DNA of 64,000 bases from assembly GCA_018266795.1 (NCBI GenBank), contig JAFDZV010000038.1:1-64000 (forward strand). The letters are read 5' to 3'. The stretch is from Bacteroidota bacterium (lineage in GTDB: Bacteria > Bacteroidota > Ignavibacteria > OLB7). Made by a program: the position numbers and the translations under genes. The notes below the pieces were generated by a model that was given only the letters and a program-made list of their open reading frames with translations, was not told where the DNA came from and searched no databases. Shown here one piece after another: positions 13,648 to 22,566 of this stretch (the first letter of the stretch is position 1; each line of letters opens with the position of its first letter).

Positions 13648-16473
13648 CTATCGCACAAGCTGGAGCCTCCGGCTCAGCACACCACTTCCCGTCTCAAGAC
13701 GGTAGAGATACGTGCCGCTTGCTACTGCACGGCCGTTGTGGTCGGTGCCGTCCCACATCACCGTGTGATCCCCGCAGCTCAATCCTTCGCTCATCACCAG
13801 CAGACGCACCAGCACGCCGCGGAGATCGTAGATCCCGATCCGCACGTCCCCGCTCTCCGGAAGATGGTACGCGATCGTAACGGCGCCGCTCGATGGATTC
13901 GGCTGCGCGCTCAGACGGTAGCCCGCATCCGCTAGGGCGCTCGATCCGCCCGGCGCTGCCGGCTTCGTCACGCCGCCGCCATCGCCACCACCGCCGCCAT
14001 CACCGGCATCGGGTGCTACCGGGAAGTGCAACACGAACCCGACCCCGCCGTCATCACCTCCCTGCTGCACCACATCGTACGTGAACGCATCGTCCTCACC
14101 AACACCGGGCCCTGCATAGCTGAACGTGACGTCCACCACGTCCTCCTCGCCGGGCGCAAGCGTCATGCCCCCGATCGATGCATCCTCGCTCGTGACAGTC
14201 ACCGTCCCGTCGCCGTTGTCCACGACGCCCGTGCCGATACTCCCCCCGGCATGCCACAACGCATACAGACCGTTCAAAGCAACCTGCACGCTCCCCTGGC
14301 TGATGATCGGGTTGATACCCTGCTCCTCCAGCGGCACACTCAACGACAGACCAACCGTCAACGGTGCTCCGGTCATGTTCCGCACGATCGCATGCTTCAC
14401 GTGCCCAGGATCGCCCGGCAGCATCTCGGCCGCGCTCACGTTCACCTCGTTCCGCCATGCGATGTTGTTGTTGTTCCGGGTGTTCTGCTCCGTGTTCGCC
14501 GTCTCGGCGAACGACATCGGATCATCGTCCGATTCGATCCGCGCCAGGAAGGAGTAGGTTGATTGCGTCTCGCCGTAGAGCGCGGAGTTCGGCGGCGTCC
14601 AGGGAAGCTCGGCGACGTAGTTCTCGCCGGGATCGAGCGCCGGTATGGTGACGGTGCCTGCGAGGTCGCCGTAGAGATGGCCGTCGAGCGGATTGACGTC
14701 GTTGACCCAGTGCGCGGGCCACCCGGTGTTGGTGGCGCTCTTGCTCCAGTACACCTTCAGCGTTGCGGCGGGACTTGCCTCACCGCTGAGATTGTCCACC
14801 ATCACGTAGAGGTAGTTCGGCGATCCGTTGAAGACCGGGTTCTGGTGCTCGCCCTCATGCTCATAGATCGACCCAACGGCGCGCGAGCCGACAACGTTGT
14901 CCTGGCTGGTGCGGAGCCATATCGCCTCGCTCTTCCAGATATGCGCTGCATCCATGTTCGGCTCGCCGCCGATATCCGGAACGGACGCACCGATGATACC
15001 GTATCGGCCATCGTTGAGGCCGAGATTGACGATGTTGCCGATCTGTGTCTCACGCAGGCAGAGGGCGTGCGTTGCGGTGGCCGGCGTGGCGGTAGCAGGC
15101 AACGATATCCAGCGCGACCCCACGGGCGTCACCACGCTCGACACGGAATTCTCGTCCTCCCATGAAGTTGATGTTACCGTCAGCGGTTCCTGGTAGCAGG
15201 GCGCATTCCCGTTGGCATCGGTCTTGACGAGATAAAGATCGAGATCGGTGCTGCTCCCCTTCACTGAACTGGAATGTCCGCCGAGGGCATACCCATCGGA
15301 GATCTGGATCGCCATCGCGGCGCTGACATTGCCCCCTGAGCGGCCGCCATAGGCCCGGGAAAAGATCACCCCTCCGGCATTGTCCACTTTCAACAGGCCG
15401 GCCATCTCACGCGTCGGGAATCCATTGATGTAGGCTGCAACAACGTACTCTCCTCCAAGCGTCTGCTGCACGTCCCATCCGCTCACCCCTTCATTAGGGA
15501 TCGTGGACTGGTAGGACTTCGCCCACTGCAGCGTACCGTTCGCGGCTGTCTTGATCAGCAGAAGCGCCGTCTGAGCTCCCTCCACGTATCCTGCAACGAT
15601 ATATCCGCCGTCACTCGTCTGCTGCACCGATGTGCCGGTGGCATGATTGTAGGTTTTGCTCCATTGAACAGCGCCCGAGTTATCCGTCTTGATCAGATAT
15701 ACCTGCCCGCCGGCGGCGCTGAAGCTGCGCGTGTATCCCGTGACAATGTACCCGCCATCGGAGGTTTGTCGCACGTAGTAGCCTTTTTCGTGATCCAGTC
15801 CACCGTACGTGCGGCTCCATTGCATGGCTCCGTTCCTGTCCAGCTTCACGAGGTAGACATCGTTCAATCGAGCTGCGGAGAAACTGGAGCCGGCAATGAT
15901 ATATCCCTGGTCGCTCGTCTGCTGAATCGAGTATCCGATATCGGCGTTTGTGGTGCCATATCTGAAGGACCATTGCCTGTTGCCGGTCCCGTCAATCTTG
16001 ACCACGTATATGTCTGCCGAGCTTGTCGGTTGCTGATCGCTTTTTCCCGATCGAAAATTGTAATTACCGAGCACGACATATCCGCCGTCTCTGGTTCTCT
16101 TGATGTCCGTACCGTCAACATCAACGCCAGGCACGCCGTACGTCTTCGACCATTGGAACGCACCATCGGACCTGGTTTTCACCACATAGATATTTTGCTT
16201 GCTCAGGCCGAAACTGGTGGTTGTACCCACCATGACATATCCATTGTCGGCTGCGCGGTCAAGCGGATGGCATCGCATGTAATAGCTGATCGTGAACGCG
16301 TCGGTTGTAAAATCATCACCGGTTCCTCCATATGTCTTTTGGAAGGAATATACCCCGGCAAGCTTCGGTAGAACGAGCTGTGCCGTTGCCGGTGTGACGG
16401 CCATGCAAAGAGCGCACAGCGCGGCCAGGACGCACGGCAGCAGGTTGCTGCGCATGCAACGCAAATCAGGCAT
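13648..16473 (-). CDS. Beta-propeller-repeat protein exported by T9SS
   Basis: A protein of 941 aa from ATG 16473, with RBS AAGGAGGC upstream. The signal peptide runs to TPATAQ. Residues about 25-430 hold seven or more repeats with the pattern QQTSDGGYIVAG followed by VYLIKTDNSGAVQWSKTYGG, typical of a lipoprotein-type beta-propeller. Then come an Ig/CARDB-like region (about 480-800) and a Gly-rich linker. The end is a FlgD-Ig-like T9SS domain starting QPNPSSGAV and closing GTYLYRLETGSGVLSRR. It is likely released to or attached at the cell surface; no enzymatic motif is seen. The first 114 residues of the longer frame are excluded. Confidence 0.85.
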   Translation of the reverse strand: MPDLRCMRSNLLPCVLAALCALCMAVTPATAQLVLPKLAGVYSFQKTYGGTGDDFTTDAFTISYYMRCHPLDRAADNGYVMVGTTTSFGLSKQNIYVVKTRSDGAFQWSKTYGVPGVDVDGTDIKRTRDGGYVVLGNYNFRSGKSDQQPTSSADIYVVKIDGTGNRQWSFRYGTTNADIGYSIQQTSDQGYIIAGSSFSAARLNDVYLVKLDRNGAMQWSRTYGGLDHEKGYYVRQTSDGGYIVTGYTRSFSAAGGQVYLIKTDNSGAVQWSKTYNHATGTSVQQTSDGGYIVAGYVEGAQTALLLIKTAANGTLQWAKSYQSTIPNEGVSGWDVQQTLGGEYVVAAYINGFPTREMAGLLKVDNAGGVIFSRAYGGRSGGNVSAAMAIQISDGYALGGHSSSVKGSSTDLDLYLVKTDANGNAPCYQEPLTVTSTSWEDENSVSSVVTPVGSRWISLPATATPATATHALCLRETQIGNIVNLGLNDGRYGIIGASVPDIGGEPNMDAAHIWKSEAIWLRTSQDNVVGSRAVGSIYEHEGEHQNPVFNGSPNYLYVMVDNLSGEASPAATLKVYWSKSATNTGWPAHWVNDVNPLDGHLYGDLAGTVTIPALDPGENYVAELPWTPPNSALYGETQSTYSFLARIESDDDPMSFAETANTEQNTRNNNNIAWRNEVNVSAAEMLPGDPGHVKHAIVRNMTGAPLTVGLSLSVPLEEQGINPIISQGSVQVALNGLYALWHAGGSIGTGVVDNGDGTVTVTSEDASIGGMTLAPGEEDVVDVTFSYAGPGVGEDDAFTYDVVQQGGDDGGVGFVLHFPVAPDAGDGGGGGDGGGVTKPAAPGGSSALADAGYRLSAQPNPSSGAVTIAYHLPESGDVRIGIYDLRGVLVRLLVMSEGLSCGDHTVMWDGTDHNGRAVASGTYLYRLETGSGVLSRRLQLVR

Positions 16474-17058
16474 TTCTGCCTCCTTCAATTGGGTGTGTGT
16501 TGGTTCTATGAGCTCGGCACGGCGGCGGCCCAGTGCAATGCCATGCGCTGCACGTGACGCACAGTGCCGGGTATCGACGCGAACGTTGAGAACAATGAAT
16601 TGCTGGCCGTGACTGCCAGCACAGCATGAGGTAGTTGTGACCGGATTTCTGGTGGCATTCTCGGAGACTCCGCCGGGCACGCAGCATTGTCTCCTTCGGG
16701 CTGCATGGGACGGCAGTGCGGATGCGTTCGGAGAGATCACGCACCGCGAGATGCACTTGGGAACCACGTGCAACTTAGCCCGCGGGCGATGCGGATACAT
16801 GAACCGCGACGCCAATTCTGCTGGGCCTGCGGTGTGGCCCGCCGTACCACGAGCGGTGGTAATTCATGGGCCCGAACTCCCATGCGGCGTATACAATCGG
16901 CTACGGCACGAGGCGGTATATCATCGTGGCGGGGGAATGTCGAGATGCGGCGGCGGACGAAGCGGGCGCGGAAGAAACCGCTCGCACTGTTGGAAGATAC
17001 AGAGAGAGCGAGCCGGTGCCCCGGTCTCGCGATGGAGCCGGGGTTCCTCACGGGAATG
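16474..17058. other. Non-coding stretch upstream of the beta-propeller gene
   Basis: About 585 bp without a convincing reading frame on either strand. It should contain the promoter of the minus-strand gene starting at 16473, but I see no clear TTG/TAnnTTTG pair. Confidence 0.4.
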
Positions 17059-17141: not shown

Positions 17142-17567
17142 CTACTGCTTCTTTTCCTTGCAGCACTCCGGAAGCTTTGCGTAGGCGGCGGGGTCGCGCT
17201 GCACACTCTTCGTGGAATAGCCGACGCCGGCGATCGTCTGTTCGATCTGCCTGCGGGTATCCGGCGTGTTGTTGGCCACCTTCACGAAGACGGTCTTCGT
17301 GTCCACATCCACCTTCACGTCCTGCGCCTCGCTTACTCCCTTCACACCCTTCGTGATCGCCGCGGCACAGGTCTCGCACTGCATCGTGGGAACGGCGATC
17401 GTCATCACGTGGGGATCGTTCACATCCATCAGCGGCGCGGAGACGTGACTCTCCTTCGGGGCGTCGGCCTTCGGGGCGTCGGCCTTCGGGGCGTCGGCCT
17501 TCGAGCCGCCGCAGGCACCGACTGCCACGGCGCAGGCAAGCATGGCTCCAATCATTGACAGCTTCAC
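17142..17567 (-). CDS. Lipoprotein with heavy-metal-associated (HMA) domain
   Basis: A protein of 141 aa. The start is GTG 17567 with AAGGAG 10 nt upstream; ATG at 17555 is possible. A lipobox (AVAVGAC) at residues about 13-19 indicates a lipidated protein. A linker KADAP repeated three times is followed by an HMA fold with metal site MQCETC (an MxCxxC motif) and a C-terminal ECCKEKK. HMA proteins carry Cu(I) or similar soft metals, and the extra Cys pair could add a ligand. The fold also resembles mercury/copper chaperones. It is monocistronic, with its own terminator. Confidence 0.85.
   Translation of the reverse strand: MKLSMIGAMLACAVAVGACGGSKADAPKADAPKADAPKESHVSAPLMDVNDPHVMTIAVPTMQCETCAAAITKGVKGVSEAQDVKVDVDTKTVFVKVANNTPDTRRQIEQTIAGVGYSTKSVQRDPAAYAKLPECCKEKKQ
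17456..17504. repeat. 15-bp tandem repeat inside the HMA gene
   Basis: Three in-frame copies of a 15-bp unit (GGCCTTCGGGGCGTC and rotations) encode the KADAP linker repeats. It could change copy number by slippage without a frameshift. Confidence 0.8.
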
Positions 17568-17923
17568 GGCGGTATTTCTCCTTATGTTTGAAATGTTTGA
17601 AGTGCCTGATCTCTTCCCATCCCCTCGGTCTCGAGGGCCTCGCATGCACCGGATGCCACGCTTCGATGCCACAATTCCGAATCGGACGCATCGAACCGGC
17701 GGGGACCGGCGCGGTGACGCAAATATCATGAATGAATCGGAATAGTATCTTCTCATCCGTTGCTCGACGGATGACGTTCGGAATGCCGTTCTGTTGTGCG
17801 GAGAACTCCCGGCACGCGCGCCGGCAGGCGGGCAGCGGCATGCACAGCCGGTGCGTTCCGGCCGGGAAAGGGGCGGGAGGAGGCTCACGATGAACCTGAC
17901 AACGACAATCGGAGAACGAAGCG
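17568..17923. other. Divergent intergenic region
   Basis: A 356-bp gap between the divergent HMA lipoprotein and the small acidic protein. A minus-strand GATATTTG (one mismatch to TAnnTTTG) near 17720 could serve the HMA gene, but there is no matching TTG. No other structure is recognised. Confidence 0.4.
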
Positions 17924-19723: not shown

Positions 19724-20509
19724 TTGTCCTTCCCGCTCTATATCGATCTCTTCGGCCTGCGGCTGCACCCGCATCCACTGTTCGAGATGATTGCCTACAC
19801 TGCGGGCTTTCAGCTCTATCTCCGCACGCGGCATCGCTGGCAGCACGCTCCGATTCCGCTCGAGAAGAATCTGTGGATCGTGGTGGCCTGCGTCTTCGGC
19901 GCACTTGTCGGCTCGCATCTCCTCAACATTGCGGAGATGCCGGGCGACTATCTCGCCCACCGCACGGAGTTTTCCTACTGGCTCGCCGGCAAGACGATCG
20001 TTGGCGGGTTGATCGGGGGCTGGGCCGGCGTGGAGCTGGCGAAGCGGATCGTCGGGGTGCGCTATGCAACCGGGGACGCATACGTGTTCCCGCTGATCGT
20101 GGGAACGGCGATCGGGCGCATCGGATGCTTCCTCACCGGCCTGGAGGATGCGACGTACGGCACGCCGACCGCGCTTCCGTGGGGTGTGGATTTCGGCGAC
20201 GGCATCGCACGCCACCCGACGCAGCTCTATGAGATGCTCTTCGTGCTCGCCGTTGGGCTCTATCTCCGGCATCGAAGCAGGCGGCCGTATGCGAACGGTT
20301 ATCTCTTCCGATTCTACATGTTCGCCTACTTTCTCTTCCGCTTCGCGGTGGAGTTCCTGAAGCCGCACACGGATACGTATCTTGGCCTGAGCGCCATTCA
20401 GATCGCATCACTCGCCGCTGCGCTCTTCTGCGCGCGCATCTTCCTGCCGGCTTCCGCCGTCGGCCCTGCGCAGCCTGCCGGAGAGGGAGTTCCGGCCGAT
20501 CGTGATTGA
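19724..20509 (+). CDS. Divergent Lgt-like (prolipoprotein diacylglyceryl transferase family) membrane protein
   Basis: A protein of 261 aa with a TTG start. About seven membrane segments are interspersed with Lgt landmarks: a GRIGCFLTG block (canonical Lgt GRIGNFINGE), a RHPTQLYE block (canonical RHPSQLYE) and a late YLFRFYMFAYFLFRF helix. In the signature both Asn residues and the Glu are replaced (Cys, Thr, Leu), positions important in E. coli Lgt. So although it is clearly homologous, it probably does not do standard lipoprotein acylation. The next gene is a radical SAM enzyme of a lipid-acting family. A canonical lgt is not in this window. Confidence 0.82.
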   Translation: MSFPLYIDLFGLRLHPHPLFEMIAYTAGFQLYLRTRHRWQHAPIPLEKNLWIVVACVFGALVGSHLLNIAEMPGDYLAHRTEFSYWLAGKTIVGGLIGGWAGVELAKRIVGVRYATGDAYVFPLIVGTAIGRIGCFLTGLEDATYGTPTALPWGVDFGDGIARHPTQLYEMLFVLAVGLYLRHRSRRPYANGYLFRFYMFAYFLFRFAVEFLKPHTDTYLGLSAIQIASLAAALFCARIFLPASAVGPAQPAGEGVPADRD

Positions 20510-20566
20510 TTCCCCATACGCGGAACGTTTCCATCCGGCACATTCTCAACGCACCCGAGGCTGCCA

Positions 20567-22006
20567 ATGGCTGATCGCCCCTATCTCTTCTACGAACTGA
20601 CCAACAGCATCTGCTCCACATGCCTTCGCAGAGTGGAGGCCAAGATCGTGCTCCAGGATGGCCGCGTCTACATGCACAAGTACTGTCCGGTGCACAGACA
20701 CGAGCGCGTCCTCATCTCCAGCGATGCGGAGTACTACGAGCTTACGCGCCGTTTCATGAAGCCGGGCCAGTTGCCGAAGAAGTTCAACACCCCCACGCTC
20801 TACGGCTGCCCGTACGACTGCGGCCTCTGCCCCGATCACGAGCAGCACAGCTGCCTTACGCTGGTAGAGATCACCGACGGCTGCAACCTGACCTGCCCGA
20901 TCTGCTACGCCGAGTCGTCGCCGCAGCGCATGCAGCATCGCTCGCTGGAGCAGATCGCCTTCATGCTGGATGCCGTGGTGAAGAACGAGGGCGAGCCGGA
21001 CGTGGTGCAGATCTCCGGCGGCGAGCCGACGCTGCATCCGGACTTCTTCACCGTGCTGGAGATGGCGAAGGAGCGGCCGATCAAGCATCTGATGGTGAAC
21101 ACGAACGGCATCAGGATTGCGCAGGATGAGGAGTTCGCGCGACGCCTGGCGGACTACATGCCCGGCTTCGAGATCTACCTGCAGTTCGATTCGCTGCACG
21201 ACGAGGCGATCCATGAACTGCGCGGCGCGGACCTGCTTGCCATCCGCATGCGCGCGCTGGAACGGTTGAACCGCTACAACATCTCCACCACGCTCGTGGT
21301 GACGCTGAAGAAGGGATTGAACGATGGTGAGATCGGCGCCATCATCGACTTCGCGCTCCGGCAGCGATGCGTGCGCGGCGTCACCTTCCAGCCGGTGCAG
21401 GTCGCGGGCCGCACCCGGGAGTTCGATCCCGCACAGGACCGCCTGACGCTTGGCGAAGTCCGGCAGGGCATCCTCTCGCAGACGAACGTCTTCAAGCCGG
21501 AGGATGTGATCCCGGTGCCATGCCATCCGGACTGCATCGCCATGGCGTACGCGATCAAGGTCGGCAACGAGGTGATGCCCCTCACCGGCATGGTGGATTC
21601 CTCCATCCTGCTTCAGTCCGAAGGGAGCACCATCGTCTACGAACAGCATCCCGCCCTTCGCGACTATCTGTTCAAACTCTTCTCCACGTCGCACTCGCCG
21701 GAGTCGGCGGAATACTCCCTGAAGCAACTCCTCTGCTGCATCCCGCTTGCAAGCGTGCCGGAGGGGTTCGGCTACGACAACATCTTCCGCGTGATCATCA
21801 TGCAGTTCCTCGATCCGTACAACTTCGATGTGCGGAGCGTGAAGCGATCGTGCGTGCACATCGTGCATCCGGATGGGCGCATCATCCCCTTCGATACGTA
21901 CAACATCTTCTATCGCGACGATCGCGAGGCATACACCCGCAGGCTCCAGGAGGCGCATCGGCCGGTGACGATCGAACCGCTGGAACACCTTCCGGTGATA
22001 TCATGA
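20567..22006 (+). CDS. Radical SAM protein of COG1964 / tetraether lipid synthase-like type
   Basis: A protein of 479 aa. Cys layout in order: C16-x2-C19 with C40 (CSTC, YCPVH; rubredoxin-like); C81-x3-C85-x2-C88 with C96 (auxiliary Fe-S); radical SAM C106-x3-C110-x2-C113 (DGCNLTCPICY); SAM-binding SGGEP at 150-154; late cysteines C319, C323, C390, C391, C429. This architecture is that of COG1964, whose characterised archaeal member (MJ0619, Tes) joins isoprenoid lipid tails into membrane-spanning tetraethers. A bacterial member could couple fatty-acid tails or act on another lipid. The adjoining Lgt-like gene is 57 bp upstream. Family assignment is from motif memory and the substrate is inference. 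Confidence 0.82.
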   Translation: MADRPYLFYELTNSICSTCLRRVEAKIVLQDGRVYMHKYCPVHRHERVLISSDAEYYELTRRFMKPGQLPKKFNTPTLYGCPYDCGLCPDHEQHSCLTLVEITDGCNLTCPICYAESSPQRMQHRSLEQIAFMLDAVVKNEGEPDVVQISGGEPTLHPDFFTVLEMAKERPIKHLMVNTNGIRIAQDEEFARRLADYMPGFEIYLQFDSLHDEAIHELRGADLLAIRMRALERLNRYNISTTLVVTLKKGLNDGEIGAIIDFALRQRCVRGVTFQPVQVAGRTREFDPAQDRLTLGEVRQGILSQTNVFKPEDVIPVPCHPDCIAMAYAIKVGNEVMPLTGMVDSSILLQSEGSTIVYEQHPALRDYLFKLFSTSHSPESAEYSLKQLLCCIPLASVPEGFGYDNIFRVIIMQFLDPYNFDVRSVKRSCVHIVHPDGRIIPFDTYNIFYRDDREAYTRRLQEAHRPVTIEPLEHLPVIS

Positions 22007-22129: not shown

Positions 22130-22242
22130 AACACAGCGGGACGTATCACGGATCAATCCTTTCTGTACCTGGAGTGATCTTCCGTTTCCGGCCGCCGGTC
22201 CCCCCCACGATGCAGGCCGGGCCAATCACAGACAGTAGTTCA

Positions 22243-22566
22243 ATGAGCGAGACGCCACAATTGGAAAGCGACCCGGATCTTCCGTTCGAGGAGGAGGCCG
22301 CAAAGAAGAAATCGCACATGCTTCCGGGATGCCTTACCGGCGGCATGCTCTACGCCGCCGCGTTCGGCGCGTGGGTGGTCAGCACCGCAGGCTATCAATC
22401 CGTTGTGGGATCCGTACTCTGCTGGGCGCCGGCGGCGGTATTCGGTGGGGTCATCTTCTATCAGGCCGCAGTTCTGAAACGGCGCGGCTTCATTCAGGGG
22501 GTGCTGATCGCGGTGGGCATCGGTCTGCTGATGTTCGGACTCTGCGTCGGGCTCCTGTCCGCGTAG
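22243..22566 (+). CDS. Small membrane protein of unknown function
   Basis: A protein of 107 aa from ATG 22243. An acidic cytoplasm-like N-terminus (residues 1-25) leads to three predicted membrane helices: GGMLYAAAFGAWVV, VVGSVLCWAPAAVFGGVIFY and GVLIAVGIGLLMFGLCVGLL. No family is recognised. It lies 236 bp after the radical SAM gene, with a palindromic repeat between, so it may or may not belong to that unit. It precedes the photolyase gene by 89 bp. Confidence 0.6.
   Translation: MSETPQLESDPDLPFEEEAAKKKSHMLPGCLTGGMLYAAAFGAWVVSTAGYQSVVGSVLCWAPAAVFGGVIFYQAAVLKRRGFIQGVLIAVGIGLLMFGLCVGLLSA

Follow-up and report, generated by a model that had tools for sequence, protein, structure and literature searches.

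Three gene families, an Lgt paralog, a Tes-type radical SAM (rSAM) enzyme and, in most cassettes, small membrane proteins, almost certainly travel together, and we suggest that this is most likely a system whose enzymes attach lipid to small membrane proteins of its own and afterwards alter them chemically. Both enzymes come from known superfamilies; no paper on the pair or on the small protein was found in the open-access literature, subscription papers lying outside the search, and within that literature the cassette looks like an undescribed system. Its representative in the window (the whole stretch of 64,000 nucleotides that was analyzed, from a member of the Bacteroidota) comprises the following features.

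19724-20509, + strand: Lgt-like ORF, the Lgt paralog, with a TTG start and 261 aa (PF01790, AlphaFold2 model and residue comparison)
19991-20002, + strand: K90-T-I-V93 stretch, in place of the stretch around catalytic H103 in Escherichia coli Lgt
20114-20140, + strand: GRIGCFLTG signature, residues 131-139, in which R132 corresponds to E. coli R143
20567-22006, + strand: Tes-like rSAM enzyme of a distinct subfamily, 479 aa (7tol, 7TOM and clade)
20612-20695, + strand: rubredoxin-like metal site C16-x2-C19-x20-C40-x2-H43, in 81 of 81 covering sequences
20807-20839, + strand: N-terminal auxiliary cluster site C81-x3-C85-x2-C88 with H91, in 81 of 81 covering sequences
20882-20905, + strand: radical SAM CxxxCxxC site, C106-x3-C110-x2-C113 (PF04055), in 81 of 81 covering sequences
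21521-21895, + strand: predicted C-terminal metal region with C319, C390, C391, C429 and D443, from the family alignment
22174-22566, + strand: third cassette gene, a small membrane protein found by profile match, with a likely start at ATG 22243 (107 aa)

The original prediction had taken the two enzyme genes as a pair that may build or attach an unusual membrane-spanning or tail-linked lipid, an interpretation that is partly supported overall. Both genes are present as described, with the coordinates and the 57-bp gap between the Lgt-like ORF and the downstream rSAM ORF confirmed: the former matches the Pfam LGT family (PF01790, 96.1 bits against a cut-off of 24.9), and the latter matches Radical_SAM (PF04055, 97.8 bits) as well as the HMPTM zinc ribbon (PF23545, 58 bits). 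The two-gene unit is real, but it is larger than had been proposed, as the gene at 22174-22566, whose product is a small membrane protein bearing a conserved Cys, was missed as a third component and belongs to it too.

The pairing of the two enzymes is far beyond chance and is no mere local coincidence. Among genome contigs, a scan found at least 549 relatives of the rSAM enzyme, and the best 80 of these (62-73% identity), from the Bacillota, Cyanobacteria, Planctomycetota, Acidobacteriota and Verrucomicrobiota, were taken for neighborhood reading. An Lgt-like gene was present in 75 of these 80 fetched stretches, mostly less than 200 nt from the rSAM gene and in many cases with an 8-nt overlap, and two of the five loci where it was absent begin less than 70 nt from a contig end. 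The gene was likewise present in a genus relative of the source genome (G001) and at 15 of 16 loci new to the analysis that were drawn additionally from Cyanobacteria and Paenibacillaceae. A Persicobacter plasmid (Bacteroidota) carries the three-gene order with overlapping genes, and divergent actinobacterial cassettes occur in Nonomuraea as well as on plasmids of two mycobacteria, Mycobacterium branderi and M. avium (plasmid records L119 2256-5449, L121 2126-5446 and L120 1093-4470, one of which is predicted to be mobilizable). Within a sample of 149 Acidobacteriota genomes, nine members of the rSAM subfamily and eleven other Tes-type homologs were read in their genomic context: the Lgt-like gene stood at all nine of the former (one as a partial frame) and at none of the latter (Fisher p=6e-6, although p-values here and below overstate the case since many loci belong to related species and are not independent). 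This comparison of neighborhoods across phyla strongly supports the functional pair that had been predicted, and the possibility that the adjacency is unique to one genome failed decisively, given that the pairing recurs throughout the multi-phylum scans.

Distances in the gene trees of the Lgt-like and rSAM proteins correlate with a Spearman coefficient of 0.82, compared to a mean of 0.66 for within-phylum shuffles, none of 500 of which reached the observed value; the pair therefore seems to have been inherited together as one unit. The cassette spans at least seven bacterial phyla, usually with its small Cys membrane proteins included, and its distribution is patchy, with occurrences in 8 of 194 cyanobacterial genomes, 15 of 104 genomes of the Paenibacillus chitinolyticus family and about 10 of the 149 Acidobacteriota genomes. 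Among 99 relatives of the source genome, only the source genome itself and its genus neighbor carry it.

Two side observations concern the partners. Four loci of the Planctomycetota (L031, L036, L050 and L077) have a subfamily rSAM gene with an Lgt-like protein of a different type (33-34% identity), which in L031 and L077 carries GRLACFVGGCCYG; here the rSAM gene comes first and the Lgt-like gene second, and between them are encoded from one to three small Cys proteins. Genomes of the same class as the source genome contain Tes-like genes (L013 6346-7824 and L014 6864-8321) that group with M. jannaschii Tes, and no Lgt-like neighbor was found at either of them.

By sequence, the closest solved structure to the rSAM enzyme is Tes/GDGT-MAS (MJ0619) of Methanocaldococcus jannaschii (PDB 7tol, E=3e-68). 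An AlphaFold2 model calculated with 51 family sequences (mean pLDDT 81, residues 351-397 at low confidence) shares the full-length fold of 7TOM (Z 42.9, rmsd 2.4, 402 residues), while the next fold follows at Z 19.5; the RiPP maturases SuiB and SkfB are among the matches after Tes (Z about 19). The rubredoxin-like set, the auxiliary Cys cluster and the CxxxCxxC site named in the original prediction were all located by residue, and the three sites are spaced as they are in Tes, where the rubredoxin set of the M. jannaschii protein reads C9X2C12X20C33X2H36 (PMC9433317). Tes binds phospholipids via acyl-chain pockets (PMC9433317). The C-terminal metal region is different. C319, C390, C391 and C429 are invariant in 82 subfamily sequences, and one Tes Cys position is Asp in all 82 (D443), with the other Cys kept or moved; this position is Cys in all other sampled relatives, both Tes-type and TrsS-like. 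It is Glu in the Persicobacter rSAM protein. Compared to Tes, the enzyme has Asp443 for a shared Cys, additional C390-C391 and C319, and an Lgt paralog as its partner; since C319 was found also in several relatives outside the subfamily, the distinguishing set consists of the C390-C391 pair and D443. The position of the labile Met439 of Tes is occupied by Met or Val/Ile/Leu in the subfamily, and the actinobacterial rSAM proteins (L119, L120) are devoid of the N-auxiliary Cys set.

In the gene tree the subfamily forms its own clade outside Tes, with a branch support of 100/100 and a long stem, and the rSAM protein scores 302 bits against the Tes equivalog NF045702, where the cut-off is 450. Assignment to the Tes equivalog is ruled out on these two grounds, so that the identity of a tetraether synthase, to which the enzyme had initially been likened, should not be assumed; given the altered C-terminal metal site, neither should Tes chemistry. 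The highest-scoring NCBIfam model is that of the TrsS radical SAM (seleno)protein (NF045646, 331 bits), again below the cut-off (490), and TrsS was rejected on this score and for its differing partners, as no methyltransferase adjoins the cassette rSAM gene. A TrsS-like rSAM gene of Mycolicibacterium (L097 3329-8369) sits beside genes for a methyltransferase, a second rSAM protein, CcdA and a disulfide oxidoreductase; the rSAM gene of the M. branderi cassette adjoins two genes for DUF3558 proteins. Mss (with Ger), a proposed bacterial acyl-tail-joining enzyme, is similar by description only (PMC13274423, PMC11868695); the available text of these sources links it to no Lgt paralog, and it is set apart here by description, not by sequence.

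Which bacterial Tes homologs make membrane-spanning lipids, and which make something else, is an open question. An earlier survey counted such homologs as possible brGDGT enzymes (PMC8941075). Because the subfamily described here differs from Tes in its clade, its partner and its metal ligands, counting its members as evidence for brGDGT production is probably wrong.

The Lgt paralog shares the fold of Lgt, its AlphaFold2 model (pLDDT 89.2) aligning with 5AZB at Z 14.1 (rmsd 4.7, 237 residues; next fold Z 7.1), and it retains equivalents of R143, E202, Y235 and R239, the residues that hold phosphatidylglycerol (PG) in E. coli Lgt (PMC4728403), as R132, E170, Y202 and R206. It differs from Lgt in scoring 50.4 bits against the TIGR00544 equivalog, below the cut-off of 118.9, in being additional to a housekeeping Lgt, and in the surroundings of the catalytic His. 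In E. coli, His103 of the HGGL motif has a catalytic role (PMC8689077, PMC4728403) and has been proposed to activate the thiol of the lipobox Cys (PMC8689077). A residue comparison with housekeeping Lgt places Val93 of the paralog at this position, and three residues before it stands K90, which is invariant in a 53-sequence family alignment; the actinobacterial proteins have Arg there, and none of 11 housekeeping Lgt sequences, all from cassette-carrying genomes, has Lys.

A housekeeping Lgt was present in all 30 genomes tested, and the paralog is therefore not needed for ordinary lipoproteins; that it stands in for a missing housekeeping Lgt was rejected on the same grounds, for the source genome as for the 30. 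The source genome holds two more PF01790 genes, one of them the housekeeping Lgt (C19, on L001), with Tyr at His103, Cys at Asn146 and the signature GRIGCQLAG. The GRIGCFLTG signature of the paralog is thus present as predicted, but its alteration is not unusual and makes a weak sign of new function, since the genome's own housekeeping Lgt shares the Cys and has Tyr for His103. Loss of His103 was also discarded as proof of inactivity, given that the housekeeping-type Lgt of several genomes is without this residue. The natural reading of these residues is that the donor site would be kept and the acceptor side changed, with PG probably serving as the donor. The other additional PF01790 protein of the source genome (C16, L003 1072-2490, a frame of 472 aa with the motif GRVGCLMVGCCHG) belongs neither to the housekeeping Lgt type nor to the cassette type.

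The third component was recognized with a small-protein profile trained on sequences from the Bacillota and Cyanobacteria only, with which the ORF at 22174-22566 came first (E=8.8e-6) among 746 ORFs in the window plus the G001 region; it gave no significant match in Pfam or NCBIfam. Its sequence runs from KRR through a transmembrane helix to GLLMFGL-C124-VGLLSA, and in general these proteins have a basic stretch followed by one transmembrane helix and the conserved Cys, beyond which about nine residues (median) remain; the median distance from the last basic residue to the Cys is 21 residues (IQR 19-22). Cassettes encode one to five such proteins (three at L012, three at L031, five at L070, and three tandem copies in G001), from genes placed after the rSAM gene, before the Lgt-like gene or between them. 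Two tandem small membrane proteins at L089 (6276-6596 and 6599-6928) carry the Cys motif where the first helix ends, not the last, as GVGLCG (SFLVGVGLCG) and SLGLCG. In M. branderi and M. avium the annotated small genes between the enzymes terminate in GLCTGLNP, GVCTGLNP, GICTGLNP or GYCTGLNP and a few further residues. An adjacent small protein was not seen at about 7 of 82 loci, in several acidobacterial cassettes and in the divergent cyanobacterial cassettes.

Near the pair the small ORFs are rich in the Cys: of those that lie on the same strand and have a transmembrane stretch at the C-terminus, 86 of 97 carry it, compared to 88 of 253 comparable ORFs from other parts of these loci (p=7e-21), in a comparison where Cys was not a selection criterion and the background includes spurious ORFs. 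Small proteins of types B and C were gathered partly by the presence of Cys, which does not affect this statistic. The arrangement of basic, hydrophobic and Cys elements is like that of a lipoprotein signal peptide, which comprises 16-26 residues (PMC8689077). Unlike canonical lipoproteins, the small proteins depart from the lipobox consensus [LV][ASTVI][GAS]C: the ORF in the window reads F-G-L-C, and the consensus around the Cys is N/F/L at -3, which are the residues found there in most cases, A/G/T at -2 and A/I/L/G at -1, with I or L frequent at this last position. Variation in number, position and sequence around a single conserved Cys is substrate-like, and from these patterns the small proteins look like substrates rather than enzyme subunits, with a copy number such as would be expected of substrates.

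We therefore propose, from the presence of a third component with a conserved Cys, that the likeliest product is a lipid-modified membrane protein and not a free lipid. The Lgt paralog would bind PG as Lgt does and load its diacylglyceryl onto the small protein's conserved Cys, which, about 21 residues past the last basic residue and at the outer end of the helix, would mimic a lipoprotein signal peptide with no usual lipobox. The rSAM enzyme, with its Tes fold and altered third auxiliary metal site, would then take a hydrogen from an acyl tail placed near SAM and link that tail to another tail or to the protein through a new C-C or C-S bond, so that the membrane microprotein would end up with a covalently modified lipid anchor. 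That the Cys is the acceptor we regard as an even proposition, and we are just as evenly divided on an action of the rSAM enzyme on lipid tails; the two steps jointly, diacylglyceryl transfer to Cys and tail modification by the rSAM enzyme, are put forward tentatively, at somewhat short of even chances. Against the scheme, the loss of the His base may point to a different acceptor or to no thiol chemistry. A more specific version, to which we give rather little credence, has the specialized Lgt lipidating the helix-end Cys with no signal-peptide cleavage and the Tes-type enzyme welding the tails together or onto either the protein or a further lipid, which would yield a membrane-spanning or tail-crosslinked lipoprotein.

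A pathway for free lipids, in which the rSAM enzyme couples or modifies the acyl tails of bulk phospholipid into membrane-spanning or tail-linked forms, the Lgt paralog passes diacylglyceryl from one glycerol-based lipid to another, and the small protein acts as a scaffold or lipid presenter, has in its favor the complete Tes fold of the rSAM model (Z 42.9), the binding of bacterial phospholipids by Tes (PMC9433317) and the proposal of brGDGT-type lipids as the product of bacterial Tes homologs (PMC8941075). We nevertheless consider it unlikely, if not lightly set aside, as the rSAM clade lies apart from Tes with a changed metal site, and as it leaves both the conserved Cys and the variation in copy number of the small proteins unexplained. 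To our knowledge, membrane-spanning lipids are not known from the Nostoc, Bacillus and Paenibacillus hosts, which also counts against it. A single modifying rSAM enzyme accompanied by one to five short proteins that share a conserved residue is reminiscent of RiPP clusters, and together with SuiB and SkfB among the next-best structural matches it invites a different explanation, namely that the rSAM enzyme matures the small protein itself, for example by cross-linking it through a thioether or a C-C bond at the Cys or close to it, with the Lgt paralog lipidating it, in the manner of a membrane-bound RiPP. This, too, we think unlikely: Tes is by far the nearest fold (Z 42.9 as opposed to 19.5), and a Cys that lies within a membrane helix or where it ends would be poorly reachable by a soluble peptide pocket.

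The top NCBIfam score of the rSAM protein, to TrsS at 331 bits, would suit a redox or metabolite enzyme of TrsS type that the Lgt-like protein just anchors or feeds, yet this score is under the 490-bit cut-off of TrsS, and two homologs partnered with a methyltransferase (from M. vanbaalenii and Salinirubellus) fall outside the rSAM clade, making such a role highly improbable. An ordinary Lgt in incidental adjacency would account for the fold shared with Lgt, but a separate housekeeping Lgt in every tested genome, and an adjacency retained in different phyla and confined to a single rSAM clade, reduce its probability almost to nothing; incidental adjacency as such is refuted by the neighborhood data (75/80; 9/9 as opposed to 0/11; 15/16).

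Through the cassette, a large bacterial rSAM subfamily gains a specific, testable partner and a candidate substrate, and an unnamed family of small proteins is added. If the lipid step holds true, protein lipidation would extend beyond the lipobox and would be joined to radical chemistry on lipid tails. Hosts of the cassette include cultivable organisms, among them Nostoc, Paenibacillus and relatives of Bacillus.

Two further genes of the window were noted by eye, both on the - strand. The first (13648-16815) encodes a long protein of repeated segments whose C-terminus resembles a type IX secretion sorting signal, and the second (17142-17888) is an ORF with the heavy-metal-binding-like motif MQCETCAAAI, preceded by a short repeated KADAP stretch.
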